From: Brachynemurus nebulosus
Taxonomy: Eukaryota > Arthropoda > Insecta > Neuroptera > Myrmeleontidae
Direction: 5' to 3'
DNA length: 64,000 nt
Assembly: GCA_035578155.1 (NCBI GenBank)
Contig: JAPWDM010000006.1
Coordinates: 14,586,305 to 14,650,304, forward strand
Part shown: in pieces, positions 2,144 to 51,607 of the stretch
How positions within the stretch are numbered: position 1 is the first letter of the stretch
How the letters are laid out: each line of letters opens with the position of its first letter
Program-made: the position numbers and the translations under genes
Notes under the pieces: model-generated
What the model was told of the DNA's origin: nothing
Database searches by the model: none
What the model saw: the letters and a program-made list of their open reading frames with translations, nothing else

Positions 2144-2870
2144 TCGCACTGCCGCGATCACCGGCGCCTAAACCAAAAATCCCTTTACTGTTGTTACGGA
2201 ATATTCAAAAAATTTTCCAAAAAACCGCAATATATATCATCACTTTTTATAAAAATATATTTCATAAATATATTTACTTTTTTATTACACGTTTTCCTTT
2301 CTTTTTTTTTTGCAAATAACCACAAATCTGAAACAATGCAATTTATCGATAGGATTATCAAACGTTTGTCACACAATCGTTTTGCATCGTTTAAAAAAAA
2401 AATTTTGTCACCATTTTTATTGTAAAGAATTGCGTCATTTACATAGATAGTTGCCATTTACATCACCCATTTATTGAGAGAATGGTTCATTGGTGTACGT
2501 ATATAAGCTCAACGCCAATATAAACAACAGTGTCACCACACTCGTGCCGCTTTTTTTGTGCCATTCGTTAATTTATACGAAATGAAAAAACATAACGCAT
2601 ATAGCGGGAGAACAAAACGGGAAATTCACAATCGGAAACACACAATGATGGTATTTTTATTGATATTTTATTCATTTGATATAGTTTGATTTTAAACTGT
2701 ACTAATAAAAAAGTGATCAAAATTCAAGTTTTTTTTTTTTACCTTTTGTAAAAAAAATGGATACAGAGAGATTAAAGCAAAGGTTTGATTTTATACGGGG
2801 GTACATGAGGAAAAATAGTATTTGCAAAGTATTTCAAAAAACTATTATATAATGATTATAATTACCACTC
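2144..2870. other. Unassigned AT-rich sequence
   Basis: No gene or repeat is recognised. Short frames on both strands at 2053-2457 are built of A/T-rich codons and are probably chance. A TATATAAG string near 2500 could act as a TATA box, but no downstream gene supports it. Confidence 0.3.
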
Positions 2871-2872
2871 TA

Positions 2873-3017
2873 TACAGGGTGTAAAACAAATAACTCTCTT
2901 CCTTTTGTGGGGTGACTCATAGCACCCTGTAGACACTAAAACCGCAGGAATTTTTTCGGTCGGAATTAACAGTCGCGTCACCACTCAAAAGGATAAGAGT
3001 TATTTCCCTTACACCCC

Positions 3018-3091
<74 letters not shown>

Positions 3092-3221
3092 GGGAAATAA
3101 CTCATCCTTTTGAGGGGTGACGCGACTGTTAATTCCGAAAAAATTCCTGCGGTTTTAGTGTCTACAGAGTGCTATGAATCATCCCACAAAAGGACGAGAG
3201 TTATTTGTTTTACACCCTGTA
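2873..3221. mobile_element. Palindromic M1 derivative (foldback MITE)
   Basis: This element is flanked by TA (2871-2872, 3222-3223) and carries M1 ends. Instead of two different halves it has the same ~140-bp M1 end twice in opposite orientation. Both arms contain the M1 landmarks: the AAATAACTC block, the sequence around GACACTAAAACCGCAGGAAT and the tract around GGAATTAACAGTCGCG. The arms meet at a pure (TA)35 tract. It can fold into a hairpin with arms well over 100 bp. Confidence 0.85.
3019..3088. repeat. (TA)35 microsatellite
   Basis: A pure 70-bp TA tract sits exactly at the centre of the palindromic M1 element. The short frames reading YIYIYI across it are artefacts. Confidence 0.98.
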
Positions 3222-3301
3222 TAATTGTCAATACTATAAAAATTAGTACAATTTTTTGGATTGATAACGATTAATAACTGCCTTTTATTTCTAGCTAGGT
3301 A

Positions 3302-3553
3302 CAGGGCCGAATTCAAGTCTATGGTGGCCCCCGTGTACTTCTCATGTGAGGACTCCTGAGTACTTTTGTGAAGGCTCCTCTGGAGAATTAAAAAAATTTT
3401 AAAAAGATTGATAAAATTTTAAAAATATATTCTCTCTATTCTATTCCGCCTGTTTTAAAAATTTATTCTATTTTGAGAAATTTTATGGAGGTCCTTTTTG
3501 TATGGAGGCCCTCGGGTAGATTCCTCAAATGCCCTTATGTAAATCCAATTCTG
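3302..3553. mobile_element. hAT-type MITE, 252 bp
   Basis: The left end reads CAGGGCCGAATTCAAG and the right end terminates CCAATTCTG. The 8-bp flanks are GCTAGGTA (3294-3301) and GCTAGATA (3554-3561), seven of eight identical, as expected for an old hAT insertion. The interior is non-coding. Confidence 0.75.
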
Positions 3554-4385: not shown

Positions 4386-4898
4386 CATATATGTAGGTAT
4401 TATGAATTCATACTGTATACACATACGTAATACTGTATACAATGTCATAGAATGGAATATATGGAAGCGGAATATAAAAGCCACACAATCGTTCACATTA
4501 CATAAATATAAATGAAATGTAAATATTATTTTTGGTGTGACTGTTGTTTAAATTTCAGTTCGGTCTATTTGCAAATCATCAAACTATGTATATTATTTAT
4601 TGTCGTTTTTTCTTTTTTGTTTCATTTTTGTATTTTTCCATTCCCTGTTTTCCCCTGTTTATATTTTGGAAAAAAATTTTTCAGCTGCATAGTATCAACG
4701 ACCCTAAGAAAATTAACGGGGTACTAACAATTATACTGTAATTTGGATTGAATCGGCCCTAAATTAAGACAGAACCAACCCCCCCCCCCCGCCCCCCCAA
4801 AGTTGTGAAGTAGTTTAAGATCGTACGGCCGAAGTGAAAATTTCTATGGTGATCTCGTAGTGTCATCAGATCGGCGACATTAATTAAATGCATATTTA
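4384..4898. other. Unassigned stretch with a poly-C run
   Basis: No gene is supported. A C-rich run occupies 4779-4798. A TATAAAAG string at 4474-4481 is followed within 30 bp by no recognisable gene. Confidence 0.3.
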
Positions 4899-5402
4899 CA
4901 GAATCGTTGTAACCTTACTCTTTTTGATACATAATCGCTGTAGCATTACTACTTTTGATGCAGAACTTTAGCTTACTGTTTCGGTACGGAATTGCTGTAA
5001 CCTTACTACTTTTGGTACAGAATTGCTGTTATTTTACTACTTTTGGTACGGAATTGCTGTTACCTTACTATTTTTGGTACGGAATTGCTGTGACCTTACT
5101 ACTTTTGGTACGGAATTGCTGTAACCTTACTAGTTTTGGTACAGAATTGCTGTTATTTTACTACTTTTGGTACGGAATTGCTGTGACCTTACTACTTTTG
5201 GTACAGATTTGCTGTTATTTTACTACTTTTGGTACGGAATTGCTGTTACCTTATTACTTTTGGTACGGAATTGCTGTAACCTTACTACTTTTGGTACGGA
5301 ATTGTTGTTATTTTATTACTTTTGGTACAGAATTGCTGTTATTTTACTACTTTTGGTACAGAACCGCTGTAACCTTACTACTTTTAGTATAGAATTGAAA
5401 GG
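4899..5402 (+). repeat. 31-bp minisatellite, about 16 units
   Basis: The unit is roughly GGTACGGAATTGCTGTAACC followed by TTACTACTTTT, 31 bp in all. Units vary at a few positions (ACGG or ACAG; AACC, GACC or ATTT). Because 31 is not a multiple of three, the reading frame cycles and the protein period is 31 residues. No frame meets a stop in the array, so long frames (4955-5392, 5167-5412) result. The outermost left units are degenerate. The repetitive peptide has no sign of selection and I do not call it a gene. Confidence 0.93.
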
Positions 5403-10251: not shown

Positions 10252-10782
10252 ATTTCAAATTTTAATGTAGTTGCTCGGAGATAGTCAGGTACAAAAATAC
10301 ATCTCAGCGAGAAAATTTTCTTTTATCAAAATTTAAATAATGTATGTATTAATAATCTTTAGTTATTATATTTGTATACCACTTTTTTTTTTTTTAATTT
10401 CCGCGTGCTTATGTTATAGCAATACAAAAGAATTGTTGGGAAAGCGCTATAAAAATATTGTAAAATGATGTTTATAAATTATATTTCAAAAATAGCGTCG
10501 TAAATGATTTTTATTTTTTATTAATTATGATTTGTATAACTTTGTATTTTATAACATATTAAATTTTTATCAAATTTCTTTGACACGTTTTCATTTTATT
10601 TAAAAATATAGAGTTTTCCCATAAGAGCCCGTGTTAAAGTTACAAAACTTTGAAACCGTTTTTCTCAAAATTGGGGTAGCCAAATTTTTTTTTTTTCGGT
10701 AAGGGCTCGTAATATCTAAAGATGTTTCGTTAAAATCCTTTGAAGAATCGTTTTATCGATAAACTATCTTAATACTTTATAA
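9971..10782. other. Unassigned AT-rich sequence with poly-T
   Basis: No coding signal. A poly-T run occupies 10220-10247. Confidence 0.3.
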
Positions 10783-11131
10783 AATACCCCTGTCGCAGCA
10801 TCCTGCATAACATAGCGAATTTCCGTTTATAAAAATTAGTTTTTCTCGGAAACTAGTTGACATAGAATAATAGTTTAAAGACCTTTTTTATGTAATTTTT
10901 TCTCCTCTTTTAAACGATGTAAAAAAATTTGGCAAAAATTTTTGAATAAGTGGAAATTTTGGCAAAAAACTAATTTTTTGCAAGAACAAAAACCATGTTC
11001 CTGGCATCCGACGTGTCTGGCTGAAGAACTCATCCAAGATTTTTGGACTTCCAACTTTGTCACCAAATTTCGTAAACCTAGGACATTTCGTGCGAGAGTT
11101 ATCGTGTTGATACATATATACATACATACAT

Positions 11132-11199
<68 letters not shown>

Positions 11200-11331
11200 T
11201 TTAGTGAATATTATTTTCGGATTCTAGGGACCTCAAAACAAATTTCTGCCATAGTCCCGGGCTCAAGTCGCGTCATGACACCTACTGTAATAGCTGAATT
11301 TCCAGAATTCTTTCTGGAAATTCGCTAAAAG
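10783..11331 (+). repeat. Repeat family A, copy 1 (~550 bp)
   Basis: The copy starts AATACCCCTGTCGCAGCATC and ends with GGAAATTCGCTA. A 12-bp inverted repeat TAGCGAATTTCC (10813-10824, complement at 11316-11327) lies near its ends. The first ~110 bp differ from the copy at 27694 by only a few bases. It contains a TA tract near its middle. Decayed copies lie at 12205, 44945 and 51195 in the opposite orientation. Frames of 79-128 codons here are shadows. Confidence 0.88.
11136..11196. repeat. (AT)n microsatellite inside family A
   Basis: A 61-bp pure tract preceded by imperfect ATACATACATAC units. The same position in the 28-kb copy carries a 91-bp tract. Confidence 0.97.
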
Positions 11332-12204
11332 TAAGTATAATAAATATCACACATATCATGACTATGAGGCTGTATGTCATTGAAATGACATTAATTGCTT
11401 TATTTTTGTAGTAACTAATCTATGACTGAACAGGTCGAATATTTGCCACACAGTTGCCGAATACCGAATGATTGCCAAATATTCATTACAAACCGAGTTT
11501 CTCTAATCCTTTAAACATTACAATTCAAGTGTAAAATTGAAAATTAATTTTAAACAAATTGAAAAATAAATGTGAAATGGTCTTTAGACAAATAATTAAT
11601 TTAGAGTGCGGTATAAGTTAATAAGGATTTGTTACTCTCTGCTGAGAATGCGAGATACCGTGTACAAAAGTGTATGTAATATGTACCTAACTACCTACGT
11701 CATTGTAAAAACATCATCTTTAATAAGTGGGTGGTGGTGGGGGGGGGTGAAGGACTCTGTAAATGAATTCTAGCGGCAAATCTTATTACTTGATTGCTTC
11801 TTACAGCGAATATATTTATAATACCTACACCGCACAATTTTAATAGCATTCCCGGCAAAAAGGTTAAAGTAAAACATTTAATAAAACATATTTTTTTATA
11901 AGTCTCTGCTGTCAGTAATTTTAATTTCTTTAAGTGGAATTTTTTATATACAAGAATAAAAAAAAAAAACACTATATTCCTCAATTTCTTGCTTTTTTTA
12001 TTAAATTTTAAATTCGTATCATGAAAATTCAGCTATTACTGCGTCTGTCTGTGAAGCCTGAAGTGACATAGGTACACTAAAACTTTGATGAAATCGTTGC
12101 AAGTCCCTTGGATGAGTATACTTTAGTCCAGGCGTCGGTTACCTTTTTTGGATGGGAGGCCATTTCTCAAAAAAATTTTTTTTAGCGGGTCGCTTTTTTT
12201 AGTG
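11332..12204. other. Unassigned sequence
   Basis: No gene supported. A G-rich run (GGTGGTGGTGGGGGGGG) lies at 11730-11746. An AAAATTCAGCTATTACTGCG block near 12025 matches the family A end and may be a fragment. CAGGCGTCGGTTACC at 12131 resembles a hAT end. Confidence 0.3.
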
Positions 12205-12580
12205 AATATACGAATCGAAAATTCTCCTATTAGAGCCACTGTTTTGTTGTGAAACAATTTGTTTTGTAGTCTCTAGAAGCCGAAAAAGACATTCAATAAA
12301 ATTTATATCCGCGCGATAACCTTCGAATGAAGCATGCTATTTTTACGAAATTCGGTGAAAATGTTAGAAGTCCAAAAAAAAAAAAATGGAAATGTTGGGT
12401 GAAAATTTTTGTGGGGAAATAAGTTTTTTGGCAAAATTTCCTCAAATTTTTGCCATATTTTCTTACATATAGCTGGAAAGAGGAGAAAAAATCACATAAA
12501 AAAGATTTTTGAACAATAATTTTATCATCAAGTGGTTTCCGAGAAAAACTAATTTTTGTAAGCGGAAATTCGCTATATTA
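12205..12580 (-). repeat. Repeat family A, decayed copy
   Basis: Shared blocks include GTCTCTAGAAGCCGAAAAAG, a TTACGAAATTCGGTGAAAAT stretch and TTTCCGAGAAAAACTAATTT, all in the reverse orientation relative to 10783. Its missing outer end (TTATGCAGGATGCTGCGATA) appears at 12993-13012, suggesting an insertion or rearrangement between 12580 and 12975. Confidence 0.7.
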
Positions 12581-13023
12581 TTTTTCTTAATACAAATTTT
12601 CCTCAACACAAATTAATATAAATATGATTAAAAATCAACATGAAAAAAATTTTTTAGTAACAGTTTATGTTTTACATGTTGTAATAACATCGGAGAACAA
12701 AAAAAGTACAGAGTATGCTCAGCTCTGCATGAGCAAAGCCAATTGTTCGAAAAATTATATTGCTTGCCGACTCTTGACTTGCTTTAGTCAGACACATCGG
12801 ATGCCCAAAACCAAATATTTTGATACTGTTTGTTGATTAATATTGTAATATTGGAAATATTTTTCTAACTGATAAATTTTGTAGGATGATTTCGTCTTAG
12901 TTAATCTAATACACGACGTAAAGTCTTGTAGTAGATTTGGAAATTTTATTTTTCGAATTGAAGTATAGGTTACTCCTACGAAATTCACTATGTTATGCAG
13001 GATGCTGCGATAAAAATCAGCAA

Positions 13024-13064: not shown

Positions 13065-13754
13065 AGAAACAATTTTTTTAGTCTTAAAGAGCAAAATTGG
13101 AATACCAAACAAAAGCAACATTAGTCGCGGTAATTTTCATTTATTCAAAAATCACTCAGTTTCATTTTTTTGACAAACTTAATGAGAATATTTAAATAAT
13201 TTTGTATGATTGACTTTTTAATGAAATAAAATTAATATTTTATTCGTTTAATTAGCAAAAATTATTCAATTAATATAAACAAAACTTGAACATTGTAATA
13301 ATTTGTACATATTTACACATGGTGACAGGGTGTATCATAAAACTCAATACATATTACGTATTATTTTAATTTTTTGTAAACAATAAAATAAATAGGTATT
13401 TTATCAAATTAGCAAAACGGAATACTGACCCTACAAAGACCATTTGATGTAGAAAGTTAAAATTTGGTACAGTTATAGAAAACGGTGGTCCAATTATAGA
13501 CATCTTGTACAAAAAATTTTCGAAAGACTGTTTTCATTTTAAGATATGCTTTGACTCGTATATTGACAGGTACGTGATCCAAAAGAGCGCATCATAAGCG
13601 ACCAATTTTTTAGTTAATTATCAAACTAAATCAGATTCCATCAAATTAACAAATTAAAAACAAAGGGAGGATTCCAAAAATTATCCTTATTTATCAAATT
13701 AAAAATATAAAGGTGTTGTTTTATTCTCAAAGGCCTGTTCATCTTTTTTTTTTT
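13064..13754. other. Unassigned AT-rich sequence
   Basis: No gene or recognisable element. Confidence 0.3.
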
Positions 13755-13974
13755 TTCAATTTCAAAATGTTATCGAGTGCCTGTGAAACATTGTTAATGT
13801 ATGGCGGACTTTTGTTCGTAGTTATACATACACCAATATTCATATGTTCAGTTAATGTCCACCTTTAGCTGATACTTGAACACTCGATTTACTTTGGCAT
13901 ATATGACCAATTCATTATGTTAATTAAAATTCAGTGTTTGAGTGATTCGGTGACTAAAATTCAGAGTGTTCACA

Positions 13975-14046
13975 GGCTCAGCTGGGACTCGAACCCGGAT
14001 CTCTTGGTTGCTAGTCAAGCGCCTTATCAATTAGGCTACCGACGGC
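13975..14046 (-). repeat. tRNA-like sequence (SINE head), minus strand
   Basis: Read on the minus strand it has an A-box-like TAGCCTAATTGATAAGGC and a B box GGGTTCGAGTCCC. The seven-base anticodon-type loop is CTAGCAA (T33, triplet AGC) with a four-pair stem. The acceptor ends do not pair (GCCGTCG against CTGAGCC), so it is not a functional tRNA. It forms one arm of a ~40-bp inverted repeat with 14053-14092. Confidence 0.75.
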
Positions 14047-23443: not shown

Positions 23444-23864
23444 GTAAATGGTATTTGCTTTTTTGTTTATAGTTCTCACAAAGTGTTTATGTTACTGCGT
23501 ATCCAAATTGATTTTTTATTGTCTGGAAGAAAATATTTTGGAATCTTTATAAGTTCAACATTTTTCGATCTATAAACACAAAATTTTACGTACAGGTGGT
23601 AGATGTCAGGTAAGATACAGTCAAAAACGATTTTTTTAACCGTTTAAGATACTTTTTCGAAACTTTAGGTATTGAAAAGCGGGGACGAAAAATTATTTTC
23701 ACATACAACACCCTATGGAGTATATTGGTAGGAGGGATTCACAAAATAAAGTTAAGACTTCTTTTACAAATTTTCGTTCTTCATGACTTTTTTTGTTTCA
23801 TATAGCCAAAGAGTAACTATTGCAAGCAGACGAAGATTTCGACTCGGGTAGTGACAATGATATT
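23444..23864. other. Unassigned AT-rich sequence
   Basis: Nothing recognised. Confidence 0.3.
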
Positions 23865-24275
23865 TTTTCAATTTCGAATATTATCGAGTGCTTGTGAAAC
23901 ACTACTACGTAGTATGACAAACTTTAGTTTGCATTTTAAACACACGCAGTATTCATATATTCACTTATCGTTCAGCTAAACTGAAACTTTAAGCACTCGA
24001 CCTCCTTGGTTAACATGACCAAAACCCGCATGTAAATTAAAAATCACAAAGTGAAATTAATATTTTAAATTGAAAAATTGTAACTGTTTCTCGCATTAAA
24101 GTATCAATACACATAGGTGGTTGAATGATTATTGGATTGGGGCGTCTGTCGAACAAAAGATTGTTAGTCTAGTGGCAAGACATCTGGCTAGTTACCGGGA
24201 GAGCCTGGGTTCGATTCCCAGACGATTCAGTTTGATAATTTTTTCAATCACTTTGTGATTTTTAATTTAAATGAT
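23865..24275. mobile_element. tRNA-headed composite repeat, copy 2
   Basis: Same architecture as 13755-14135. The first module is bounded by TCGAGTGCTT (23884-23893) and AAGCACTCGA (23991-24000). The second module is bounded by a perfect 21-bp inverted repeat at 24034-24054 and 24248-24268. Inside the second module is one tRNA-like sequence followed by CAGTTTGATAATTTTTTCAA. Confidence 0.8.
24159..24229 (+). repeat. tRNA-like sequence (SINE head)
   Basis: A box TAGTCTAGTGG, B box GGGTTCGATTCCC and a seven-base anticodon-type loop CTAGTTA (triplet AGT) with a five-pair stem (two G-T pairs). The acceptor stem has several mismatches, so a working tRNA is unlikely. The tRNA family differs from that in the 14-kb copy. 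Confidence 0.72.
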
Positions 24276-26805: not shown

Positions 26806-27693
26806 TAAAATAATTCAAAATATACATATATGTGGTACGTACCCACATATATTTAACATTCAAACACATTCAAATCAATTAGAGAATTACAGAAAGTTTA
26901 GATAACAAACTGGTAAAAATAAATAAAAAAAAATACTTTTATTAGTTTTTATATTGTTTATTTTAATATTTTTTATAGAAACTAAGAGAGTAGTGTGTGT
27001 TGGTGTTTGTGTGAGTCCAGTATATACACACACCGGTGTGGTAACATCGCACATATACCTACATAATGCGTAATCAATTAATCATTGATTGCGACTGACC
27101 TCTGCGGTTGTTTCGATTATTTTCGGATCCTGAAGCCGTAGCTGTAAATTTCATGAAGAGGGTAAAATAACCATAGTAACGGTGTTCCTCTCGGTGCGAA
27201 CACACAGTAGTACAAATACAACGACCTAAAAAGTTTCCTTTTTTGTGTACGTGTGTATGAAAGGAATTCAATAGCTGAACGAAATAAAGTGTAGGGGCTA
27301 CACTGTGCACGTGTTACATTTTTGGAATCCCGTGGGCACAATATATGAAAAACGATATGCCTTGATTGTATCGAGTACAAAACACCTTGCTTGCCTGGTG
27401 TGCAAAGTAATTCATCACCACCGAGAAAGAAACGAGGAAGAAGAGTGAATGACGACGGAGTAGTGGGTAAGTTGTCATTCAGGCAAAAGTGTGCCTCAAA
27501 ATAAGAAATATCAATACATTAATGTGCCGGTATGAATTAAGTTTTTCCACGTAATTTGACCTAGATTCTTTTGTAGAATTCTTATGTTAAAAGTATTTTT
27601 TCGTTCCTTTATTCAACTTTTAGATAGTGTCCGGGAAAATAAGACATTTAATGATTTGCAGTTTTTTTTTTTGCTTCATAGTGTATAAGGAAA
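26806..27693. other. Unassigned, locally GC-richer sequence
   Basis: 27000-27480 has more mixed composition than its surroundings and two overlapping minus-strand frames (27074-27380), neither recognisable. A consensus-like splice donor (GTGGGTAAGTT) lies at 27463-27473. No gene can be claimed. Confidence 0.25.
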
Positions 27694-28254
<561 letters not shown>

Positions 28255-28802
28255 GTGTGTACTGAAAAGACTGTACAGTTTCTGTTACTAAAAAAGATTG
28301 AGTTAACTTGAGTTAGTGAAATGACTAAAAGAATTTTGGAAAGCCTTTATTAACTGACGCTATAATTTTACATTAAAATATTGATATTACTCTAACTAAT
28401 GCACTATTGTTAATTTAACAAAATATTTTTAAAAAACACAAATCATAAAATAAATTTATAAATATATCAGATATCCATAGTTTTCAGTCATGTTTTCTTA
28501 AAACAAGTTTTATCTAATCATAAAATTTACGATTTCAACTTTAATATTTATCTAAAAACCTAAAAAAAATTGTTCTGTCCATTTAAAAAAAAATATTTGT
28601 AAGGTATATAATGTGGTTTAAAGTCTTGAGACTTTTTTCGTCTATAACAGACGCCACTCTTATTATTATTTGTAAACGTTATTAACCGTACAAGTTTCTT
28701 TTTACAAAACACTATTATTTATACATTTTTATGATGTGGGTGGAGGACAAGGAAAGTGGTGGTGGACTAGGATTTGAAAGGTGTGCGTCTGCAGTCGTCT
28801 TC
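28255..28802. other. Unassigned AT-rich sequence
   Basis: Nothing recognised. Confidence 0.3.
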
Positions 28803-35395: not shown

Positions 35396-35400
35396 CGCCG

Positions 35401-36068
35401 CACAGTGGTCCAATTTTCGAAAAAAACGGACAAAAATCAAAAATTACTTTGAGTAAAACAAAAAATGGTATGTAAGGGTTTTCAAGGTCGCTGATTATGA
35501 ATTTGATATTATTATTTTGAAAATTCAAAATGGTGGGTCCAAAATAGCGGGCCAAAATAAAAAAATTAGTTTTATTGAAACAAAAAATGGTATATAAATG
35601 TTTTCAAGGTCATTGAAAATGAATATGAAGTGAGACAAGAGAAAATTTGTTGTGGAAAAAGCAAATCATCCAACTCGGTCAAACTCATAACTATTTCTTA
35701 TAAATAAACACATTAACAATGTAATATTTCTCTGTAATAAGTACACCCTATAGAAATATTAAATTACCCTTTACCACACATCCATAAAGATTACTCACCT
35801 TCATTTTCAACTTCCATCACTCTTGATTTCAAAAATACACTTGCAAACAAAAGTTATTAATGAACAACTAGAAGATGCGTACGAGGCAGGTGCTCAGTTA
35901 ACTGTGTTTGACCGTCCCTTATCTGGTAGTGAAGCCGGTATAATGAACTGTCGGTTTGCACCGAGGTGCAGTGGTGTCCCCCTACGGTATTATGGGGTAA
36001 TAAGTTCAAAATTACAAACATCACTTTTCTCATTTTTGTCCGCTTTTTTTGGAAATTGGACCACTGTG
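35401..36068. mobile_element. Transib-like non-autonomous element, 668 bp
   Basis: Both ends start with the heptamer CACAGTG, and the terminal repeats match at 34 of 37 positions (35401-35437; 36032-36068 in reverse). The element is bounded by an exact 5-bp GC-rich duplication CGCCG (35396-35400, 36069-36073). Transib transposons, the source of RAG1, have CAC-starting ends like the V(D)J heptamer and 5-bp GC-rich duplications. A nonamer-like AAAAAAACG lies 12 bp after the left heptamer and AAAAAAGCG at the same distance on the right. The interior holds two imperfect copies of a unit with AAAAAATGGTAT and TTTTCAAGGTC. No transposase is present; the 85- and 103-codon frames are not recognised. 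Confidence 0.72.
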
Positions 36069-36192
36069 CGCCGTAAGAGATTCTCTTCCCAGCGTCACTA
36101 CACTTATCGTACATTTAATCTATTGACACTTTAATGGCCGCTCATACAATATGTATGTGATAGCCAGAAGAATTGTAGAGACCGACCACATA

Positions 36193-44944: not shown

Positions 44945-45290
44945 TGTAAATAATACCACGAATTGGAAATTCAGCTATTACAGCCGCTCTGATGCGGTGA
45001 CTTGTGAGTCCGGGACTATGACCGAGTGTTGTTTTAATGTTAGGGTCCCTAGAAACCGAAAATGACATTCACTAAAATTTATAGGTATATTTTTGCATTT
45101 TTCGTGAAAGAAATTCGTATTTTGCCAAAATTTCCCCAAATGCAAAAAGTTTTGTGGTATTGGAAGGAGGCGAAAACATCACATGAAAAGGTTTTTCAAT
45201 CATTATTCTATGTAAACTGGTTTCCCAGAAAAACTAATTTTTTAAACGGAAATTCGCTAAATTTTGCAGAATGTTGCGACAGCGGTGTTT
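44945..45290 (-). repeat. Repeat family A, decayed copy
   Basis: Shared blocks include TTCAGCTATTACAGCCGCTC, GGGTCCCTAGAAACCGAAAA and AACGGAAATTCGCTAAATTT. No TA tract in this copy. The 76-codon frame is a shadow. Confidence 0.75.
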
Positions 45291-51194: not shown

Positions 51195-51607
51195 TTTTCG
51201 AATTGAAAATTCAGCTCACATAATGCGATTTGAATCCGGGACTATGACAAAAATTTGTTTTGAGGTCTCTAGAAATCGAAAATAGCATTTACCCCACAAT
51301 AACTTAAGAAGGAAACATTTATTTTTACGAAATTTGGTGCAAACGGTGGAAGTTCAAAAATCTTGAATGAGTTTTTCAGCCAGTCACTTCTGATGTTTGG
51401 TGCATGGATTGGTGGGCATTTTTTGTAAAAAAAAATTAGCTTTTTGTTAAAATCTTCCCAAATTTAAAAGTCTTTGCAAAATTTGCAAAGAGGAGGAAAA
51501 ATCACTTAAAAAAGGATTTTGAACTATTATTTTATGTAAACTGGTTTTCGAGAAAAACTAATTTTTGTAAATGGAAGTTATGCAGGATGCTGTGACAGGC
51601 GTATTTT
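51195..51607 (-). repeat. Repeat family A, decayed copy
   Basis: Shared blocks include GAATCCGGGACTATGAC, GGTCTCTAGAAATCGAAAAT and TTATGCAGGATGCTGTGACA. No TA tract. Confidence 0.78.

Follow-up and report, generated by a model that had tools for sequence, protein, structure and literature searches.

The element at positions 35401-36068 of the window (668 bp) is, at a probability of about 0.96, a non-autonomous, internally deleted Transib, which comes from a parent of ~3.3 kb, similar in type to the longer element E, and has lost the transposase gene. Among transposons, Transib is closely related to the RAG recombinase. The window is the whole 64,000-nucleotide stretch of DNA analysed here, corresponding to C106:14586305-14650304 of a 960-Mb assembly of 138 contigs. 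The ends, the duplications, the family of copies, the longer relative with a transposase and the deletion relationship between the two were all observed directly, and the Transib assignment is given by the 5-bp duplication, the CAC/heptamer ends and the RAG1-core-like transposase with its DDE triad in the longer copy. The element is also a MITE, being short and gene-less, present in many copies and provided with ends in common with E.

Borders and ends of the element

By flank comparison, the 5-bp flanks at 35396-35400 (left) and 36069-36073 (right) were both CGCCG, a perfect target-site duplication on either side of 35401-36068. CACAGTGGTCCAATTT was read at both ends, and the end-to-end identity was 16/16, 18/20, 34/37 and 35/40 with increasing length. 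The terminal inverted repeats of 37 bp obtained by end comparison are located at 35401-35437 (+ strand) and 36032-36068 (- strand), and start with the heptamer CACAGTG at 35401-35407 (+) and 36062-36068 (-), respectively, which equals the consensus heptamer of the RSS as given in excerpts of PMC8289069. A second box lies 22 bp past the heptamer at each end, ACAAAAATC at 35430-35438 (+) on the left and ACAAAAATG at 36031-36039 (-) on the right, matching the RSS nonamer ACAAAAACC at 8/9 and 7/9 positions, respectively. The heptamers, the 34/37 terminal repeats and the duplicated CGCCG at the borders had all been described in the earlier note and were reproduced.

The strength of the terminal repeats was compared with chance by using inverted pairs with the first 10 bases identical and a distance of at most 3 kb. 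None reached 34/37 in 60 dinucleotide shuffles of the window. The real window contained 722 inverted pairs of that strength (10 identical start bases, 34/37, at most 3 kb apart), and long TA/AT runs may be behind many of them. A 5-bp flanking duplication was found in 1/722 and a CAC start in 1/722, both of them in the window element. When flank lengths from 5 to 10 were scanned with each border shifted independently from -6 to +6, a single perfect duplication was obtained for the window copy, 5 bp long and exactly at the CAC border.

A longer relative with a transposase gene

The longer copy with the same ends, for which a search had been proposed in the earlier note, was found as element E at C84:40844960-40848271 (3312 bp), which carries a Transib (RAG1-core-like) transposase. 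One of its ends, 537 bp downstream of the transposase match, is identical to the ends of the window element at 36-37 of 40 positions. Its own two ends are 38/40 alike, and a perfect AGGCG duplication is present on both sides.

One transposase frame was seen in E, with two in-frame TAA stops. Its protein pieces are collinear on HzTransib (Helicoverpa zea, 6pqn), at residues 12-114 (E value 8.8e-10), 117-243 (5.9e-23) and 255-479 (1.5e-51), respectively. The DDE triad of HzTransib is given as D126, D225 and E436 in excerpts of PMC6941560, the numbering of which differs from the chain positions by an offset of 17 derived by hand from the alignments, and the residues of E aligned to these three are D, D and E. 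The E transposase is thus aligned along most of its length with HzTransib (6pqn to 6pr5) with the catalytic acids kept, and the 5-bp duplication of HzTransib, GCTCG in excerpts of PMC1852546, is of the same length as that in the window family. The differences are that in the transposases of this genome the HzTransib-like core is preceded by an extra N-terminal part containing a GRP motif, and that the window element is without a transposase gene.

In alignment, the window copy, when inverted, corresponds to two parts of E placed end to end, E 1-425 (86%) and E 3096-3312 (84%), of which the former is located at 35646-36068 (-) and the latter, as the 3' end of E, at 35401-35628 (-). The 5' part of E is 78-88% identical to single short copies and 89% identical to their majority sequence, so E is a relative of the parent rather than the parent itself.

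With the E transposase DNA as the query, 10 candidates were obtained and all scored, and five of them were places of the same family (at least 92%). The larger damaged coding copies are at C41:7486291-7488616 and C84:56012509-56013796, with CAGCG and CATAG, read by eye, on both sides of the two copies. A deleted coding copy occurs with the same flanks at C65:915622-916001 and C41:391565-391944, with one end eroded and an imperfect duplication. From their sequences these two look like one insertion that was duplicated, by segmental duplication or as a second haplotype left in the assembly, and they were not counted twice as insertions. Against these five coding places, copies without a gene are by far the more numerous. 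None of the five coding places held an intact E-family transposase. Hence the mobiliser could be a copy since lost or another Transib family, and the present-day mobility of the window family is unproven. The earlier note's reading of the element as a non-autonomous Transib, with ends that would be natural substrates of a RAG1-like transposase in the same genome, is supported with this qualification.

Interior of the element

A subterminal unit of ~122 bp belongs to the left end of the element and is repeated inside it in two copies, at 35417-35506 (+) and 35538-35628 (+), which are 79% identical by repeat comparison. In 9 of the 30 loci of the family that were read, Tandem Repeats Finder reported arrays of this left-end unit, at periods of 104-123 bp and with at most 3.8 copies. 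The titles listed in a literature text search with words of the internal repeat were all unrelated, and its patterns gave 0 and 3 contigs in contig collections.

A GC-rich block at 35861-36020 (46% GC vs 28-38% in the stretches around it) is common to E and other copies. Four frames of the window element had no Pfam match above the cut-off, one match (DUF6545) being sub-threshold, and no protein-database relative was found for the longest frame. For the open frame of 103 aa that covers the GC-rich block, neither a Pfam match nor a protein-database relative was obtained, and no PDB match was significant; a captured gene is therefore not claimed.

Other features of the window

A tandem array at 4897-5397 is built of a 31/93-bp unit, with 5.4 copies at the 93-bp period, and one of its frames stays open for ~150 codons. 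Five places (10781-11332, 27691-28256, 51324-51607, 45098-45290 and 12417-12581) hold copies of a dispersed repeat that is at most ~550 bp long; a TA/AT microsatellite lies inside two of these copies. The imperfect palindrome at 2834-3260, around a TA run (446 alignment columns, 86%), resembles a fold-back element. Matches to the tRNA family above the Rfam cut-off were located at 13978-14042 (-) and 24158-24229 (+); the nearby stretches 13751-13933 and 23863-24046 are 73% alike in the same direction, with the tRNA matches on opposite strands.

Copy family and target-site duplications

The window element as the whole-genome query gave 577 candidate places; of the 40 that were scored every one matched, the window copy among them. 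In 33/40 the identity was 90-94% over the right-hand three fifths of the query, where the match starts at query position 251 or 260-261 and runs to about 675. Thirty of the 577 candidates, again with the window copy, were read as loci. Their right-hand parts were 86-95% identical pairwise and 91-98% identical to the majority sequence (29/30 at 94.7% or above). The corresponding tree was star-like (median end branch, 0.035 changes per column; 3/27 inner branches well supported), a shape such as would be expected after one burst of copying. Both ends were found in 23/30 loci, and L015, L026, L030, L031, L035, L036 and L037 were dropped for want of a second end. The 46 ends of the 23 copies started with CAC in 36 cases and were exactly CACAGTG in 33, one base off in 12 and more than one base off in 1.

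The family was also sought in other collections. Seven viral contigs matched a 17-base end pattern; these were two sequences with one match each, which is about the chance number, and a second end was found in neither, so they were rejected. The 35-position end pattern had 0 matches in a genome contig collection, and blastn of the window element gave no match against phages, plasmids and E. coli genomes, a set that holds few or no animal genomes.

The flanks of the copies were tabulated, as the earlier note had asked. A perfect 5-bp duplication was present in 11/23 copies (10/22 when the window copy is left out) and absent from the other 12, and flanks agreeing at 4-5 of 5 positions were present in 19/23 (18/22). 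When the right flanks were exchanged among copies in 2000 trials, perfect 5-bp matches had a mean of 0.51 and a maximum of 3, and 4-5 of 5 matches a mean of 3.4 and a maximum of 11. Longer chance matches at shifted borders were seen in a few of the 23 copies: 7 bp at +1 (2 copies), 9 bp at +2 (1 copy) and 6 bp at +4 (1 copy).

It is highly improbable that the element is of the hAT type, with its end at the CAGTG inside CACAGTG and 8-bp duplications. The ends of hAT elements often begin with CAGNG, and the string CAGTGG is indeed present in the element; however, an 8-bp duplication of the window copy was absent at every symmetric shift (best 3/8), none of the 23 copies had a perfect one at shifts from -4 to +4, and the longer copy E carries a Transib transposase.

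The perfect duplications of the 11 copies were CGCCG, CATTG, CACTG, CGCTG, CAATG, CATTG, TAGTG, CACCG, CGATC, TAATG and GACCG, with a GC content of 58%. They are mostly of the palindromic form CRNYG with a free centre. The 5-bp length given in the earlier note was thus upheld (11/23 perfect), and its description as GC-rich became the narrower one of CRNYG-like targets with 58% GC. This target is comparable to the motifs CCANTGG and CABHG listed, with 5-bp duplications, for the Drosophila elements hopper and transib2 in excerpts of PMC3276498. CGCCG itself is the target in a mouse RAG strand-transfer structure, according to excerpts of a preprint (PMC11844651).

Spacing of the boxes at the ends

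The earlier note had placed boxes at 22 bp and A-rich nonamer-like matches near 12 bp past both heptamers, from which it read both ends in either spacing. The matches were reproduced, the A-rich one being 7/9 at spacer 12 on the left and, on the right, 6/9 at spacer 12 or 7/9 at spacer 11; the dual reading was not well supported by the comparisons that follow.

Among the 46 family ends, the word ACAAAAAT was at spacer 22 in 23, at 23 in 5 and at 21 in 1, the exact word being absent in 17, and 7/9 copies with the word at both ends had it at 22 + 22. Twelve Transib ends of this genome, one per family, were then compared. [AC]CAAAA was found 20-24 bp past the heptamer in 9/12 (mean 0.10 and maximum 2 in 5000 shuffles) and 10-14 bp past it in 3/12, figures in which the box is favoured by the choice of 5/12 ends (L043, L050, L072, L068 and L083) by motif rather than by a homology break or second end. 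The strict box was present in 5/7 of the better-backed ends (E, A, B, L055, L073, L044 and C). The candidate end L071, with the box at spacer 15, was left out of the 12.

These counts bear on the reading of the two window-element ends as a 12/23-type pair, in which each could serve as a 12-RSS or a 23-RSS. Besides the A-rich matches, it would draw on the nonamer-likeness of the 12 ends at 11-13 bp, which was slightly above that of shuffles (4.4 vs 3.6 matches, 1.3% of shuffles reaching 4.4), and on the 12/23 asymmetry with which some Transib families are described in excerpts of PMC8355894. With the boxes of both window-element ends at 22 bp, ACAAAAAT mostly at that spacer in the family and the excess at 20-24 bp among the 12 ends, the pair is nevertheless improbable. 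Judged from the sequences, what is recognised is more likely the box that both ends have near 22 bp, and the A-run of the window element at 12 bp probably does not provide a second spacing.

The symmetric box is in agreement with a described class of Transib ends. The Anopheles gambiae families Transib N1, N2 and N3 lack a gene. These families, named in the legend of Fig. 2 of PMC8355894, are like the window element in having an RSS-like heptamer and nonamer-like boxes; however, the excerpts of that paper list them with 12/23 asymmetry, whereas the window family looks symmetric at ~22 bp, in line with a symmetric class at 20-22 bp in that legend. The vertebrate 23-RSS has the exact heptamer CACAGTG in common with the window element, whose left box is 8/9 to its nonamer at a spacing of 22 vs 23. 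The vertebrate signals differ in forming a 12/23 pair, whereas the window element has two like ends and belongs to an insertion that is flanked by duplications. According to excerpts of PMC8289069, nonamer likeness is slight or absent in most Transib ends, that of HzTransib being an example.

Other Transib families of the genome

The genome search with the Pfam RAG1 model (PF12940) gave one isolated C-terminal piece, which matched HzTransib with an E value of 1.9e-35 and had no window-family end within 10 kb around it. When this piece was used as the query, 93 candidates were all scored and 80 were matches, many of them in long open frames, of which those of 695, 762 and 722 aa occurred at 9, 4 and 4 places, respectively. 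One of the 80 matches, on C84, was the transposase match from which element E was recognised. The nine places of 695 aa (family A, loci L058-L066, including G000:C1:986049-986477) are 99.7-100% identical over ~2.2 kb, with the ends CACTAAGGGGTATTT. CGGCG and CGACG, of the type CGNCG, were read on both sides in 2/9 copies with left ends read. On this near-identity, family A is taken to be a very recently active RAG1-core-like transposon, and it is a control in that an undoubted Transib of the genome uses the same kind of target. At several other Transib loci no end was recognisable.

The existence of these long open frames, several of them with a related end grammar, and the finding of no intact E-family transposase would be consistent with movement of the window element by a different intact Transib family. 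Such a mover is rather unlikely. When 13 ends (the 12 and L071) were compared, the end of E was the best, at 37/40 to the ends of the short copy, and the next best were 27 (L072), 26 (L050) and 25 (L043) of 40; the subterminal sequence is also common to E and the short copies. The E family is thus preferred as the mover.

The named relatives of one transposase, among 120 of 604 listed, were from the beetles Diabrotica, Psylliodes, Brassicogethes and Ceutorhynchus, from moths and butterflies and from a bee. The transposases at L044-L072 and L084 have a common N-terminal block around GRPxKxFxxLSxRSKRRKT, which aligns in register with the nonamer-binding domain (NBD) of RAG1, though with a weak score (E values for RAG1 chains about 1). 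In structure comparison, 3/50 rows, all of them RAG1, reached the NBD region (model 122-125 to RAG1 397-402), with an rmsd of 8.8-9.9.

According to excerpts of the 2022 survey in PMC9435367, RAGL ends are bipartite and conserved, the ends of Subgroup II Transib are symmetric and asymmetric, and an NBD equivalent with GRP is present in both Transib subgroups. What was seen in the Transib families here is in line with these excerpts, with the difference that here a single genome was compared and the position of [AC]CAAAA was tabulated over 12 ends. A common grammar of many Transib families here, in which a symmetric 23-RSS-like end (a CAC heptamer and then an [AC]CAAAA box 22 +/- 2 bp inward) goes with a transposase GRP block in register with the RAG1 NBD, may be put forward tentatively, though it is doubtful.

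Proposed mechanism

The biochemistry of the jump may be outlined by analogy with HzTransib and RAG, with the E family as the presumed mover. A ~3.3-kb E-type parent would have lost its transposase gene, so as to leave ~425 bp at the 5' end and ~217 bp at the 3' end. The RAG1-core-type DDE transposase encoded by the parent would bind the two symmetric ends, each as a CAC heptamer with a CAAAA box ~22 bp inward, and would nick at the CAC border to free the element. A palindromic target of the form CRNYG, in this case CGCCG, would then receive the element by joining across a 5-bp stagger. Many short copies could have been acted on in trans by that transposase, mostly in one burst.

Significance

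The window element is by itself an ordinary example. Its family is new, of a kind already known, and its coding relatives are now identified; the wider interest attaches to the Transib families of this genome as a set. The genome contains many Transib families, one of them with nine near-identical open copies, together with a large gene-less family with RSS-like ends, which together form a natural collection of ends and enzymes with which to ask what parts of an end are recognised. The same collection bears on whether the nonamer and its binding domain predate V(D)J recombination. If the common grammar were true, the nonamer and its reader would already have been an end-recognition pair in the transposon, and the 12-bp spacer would be a later addition.
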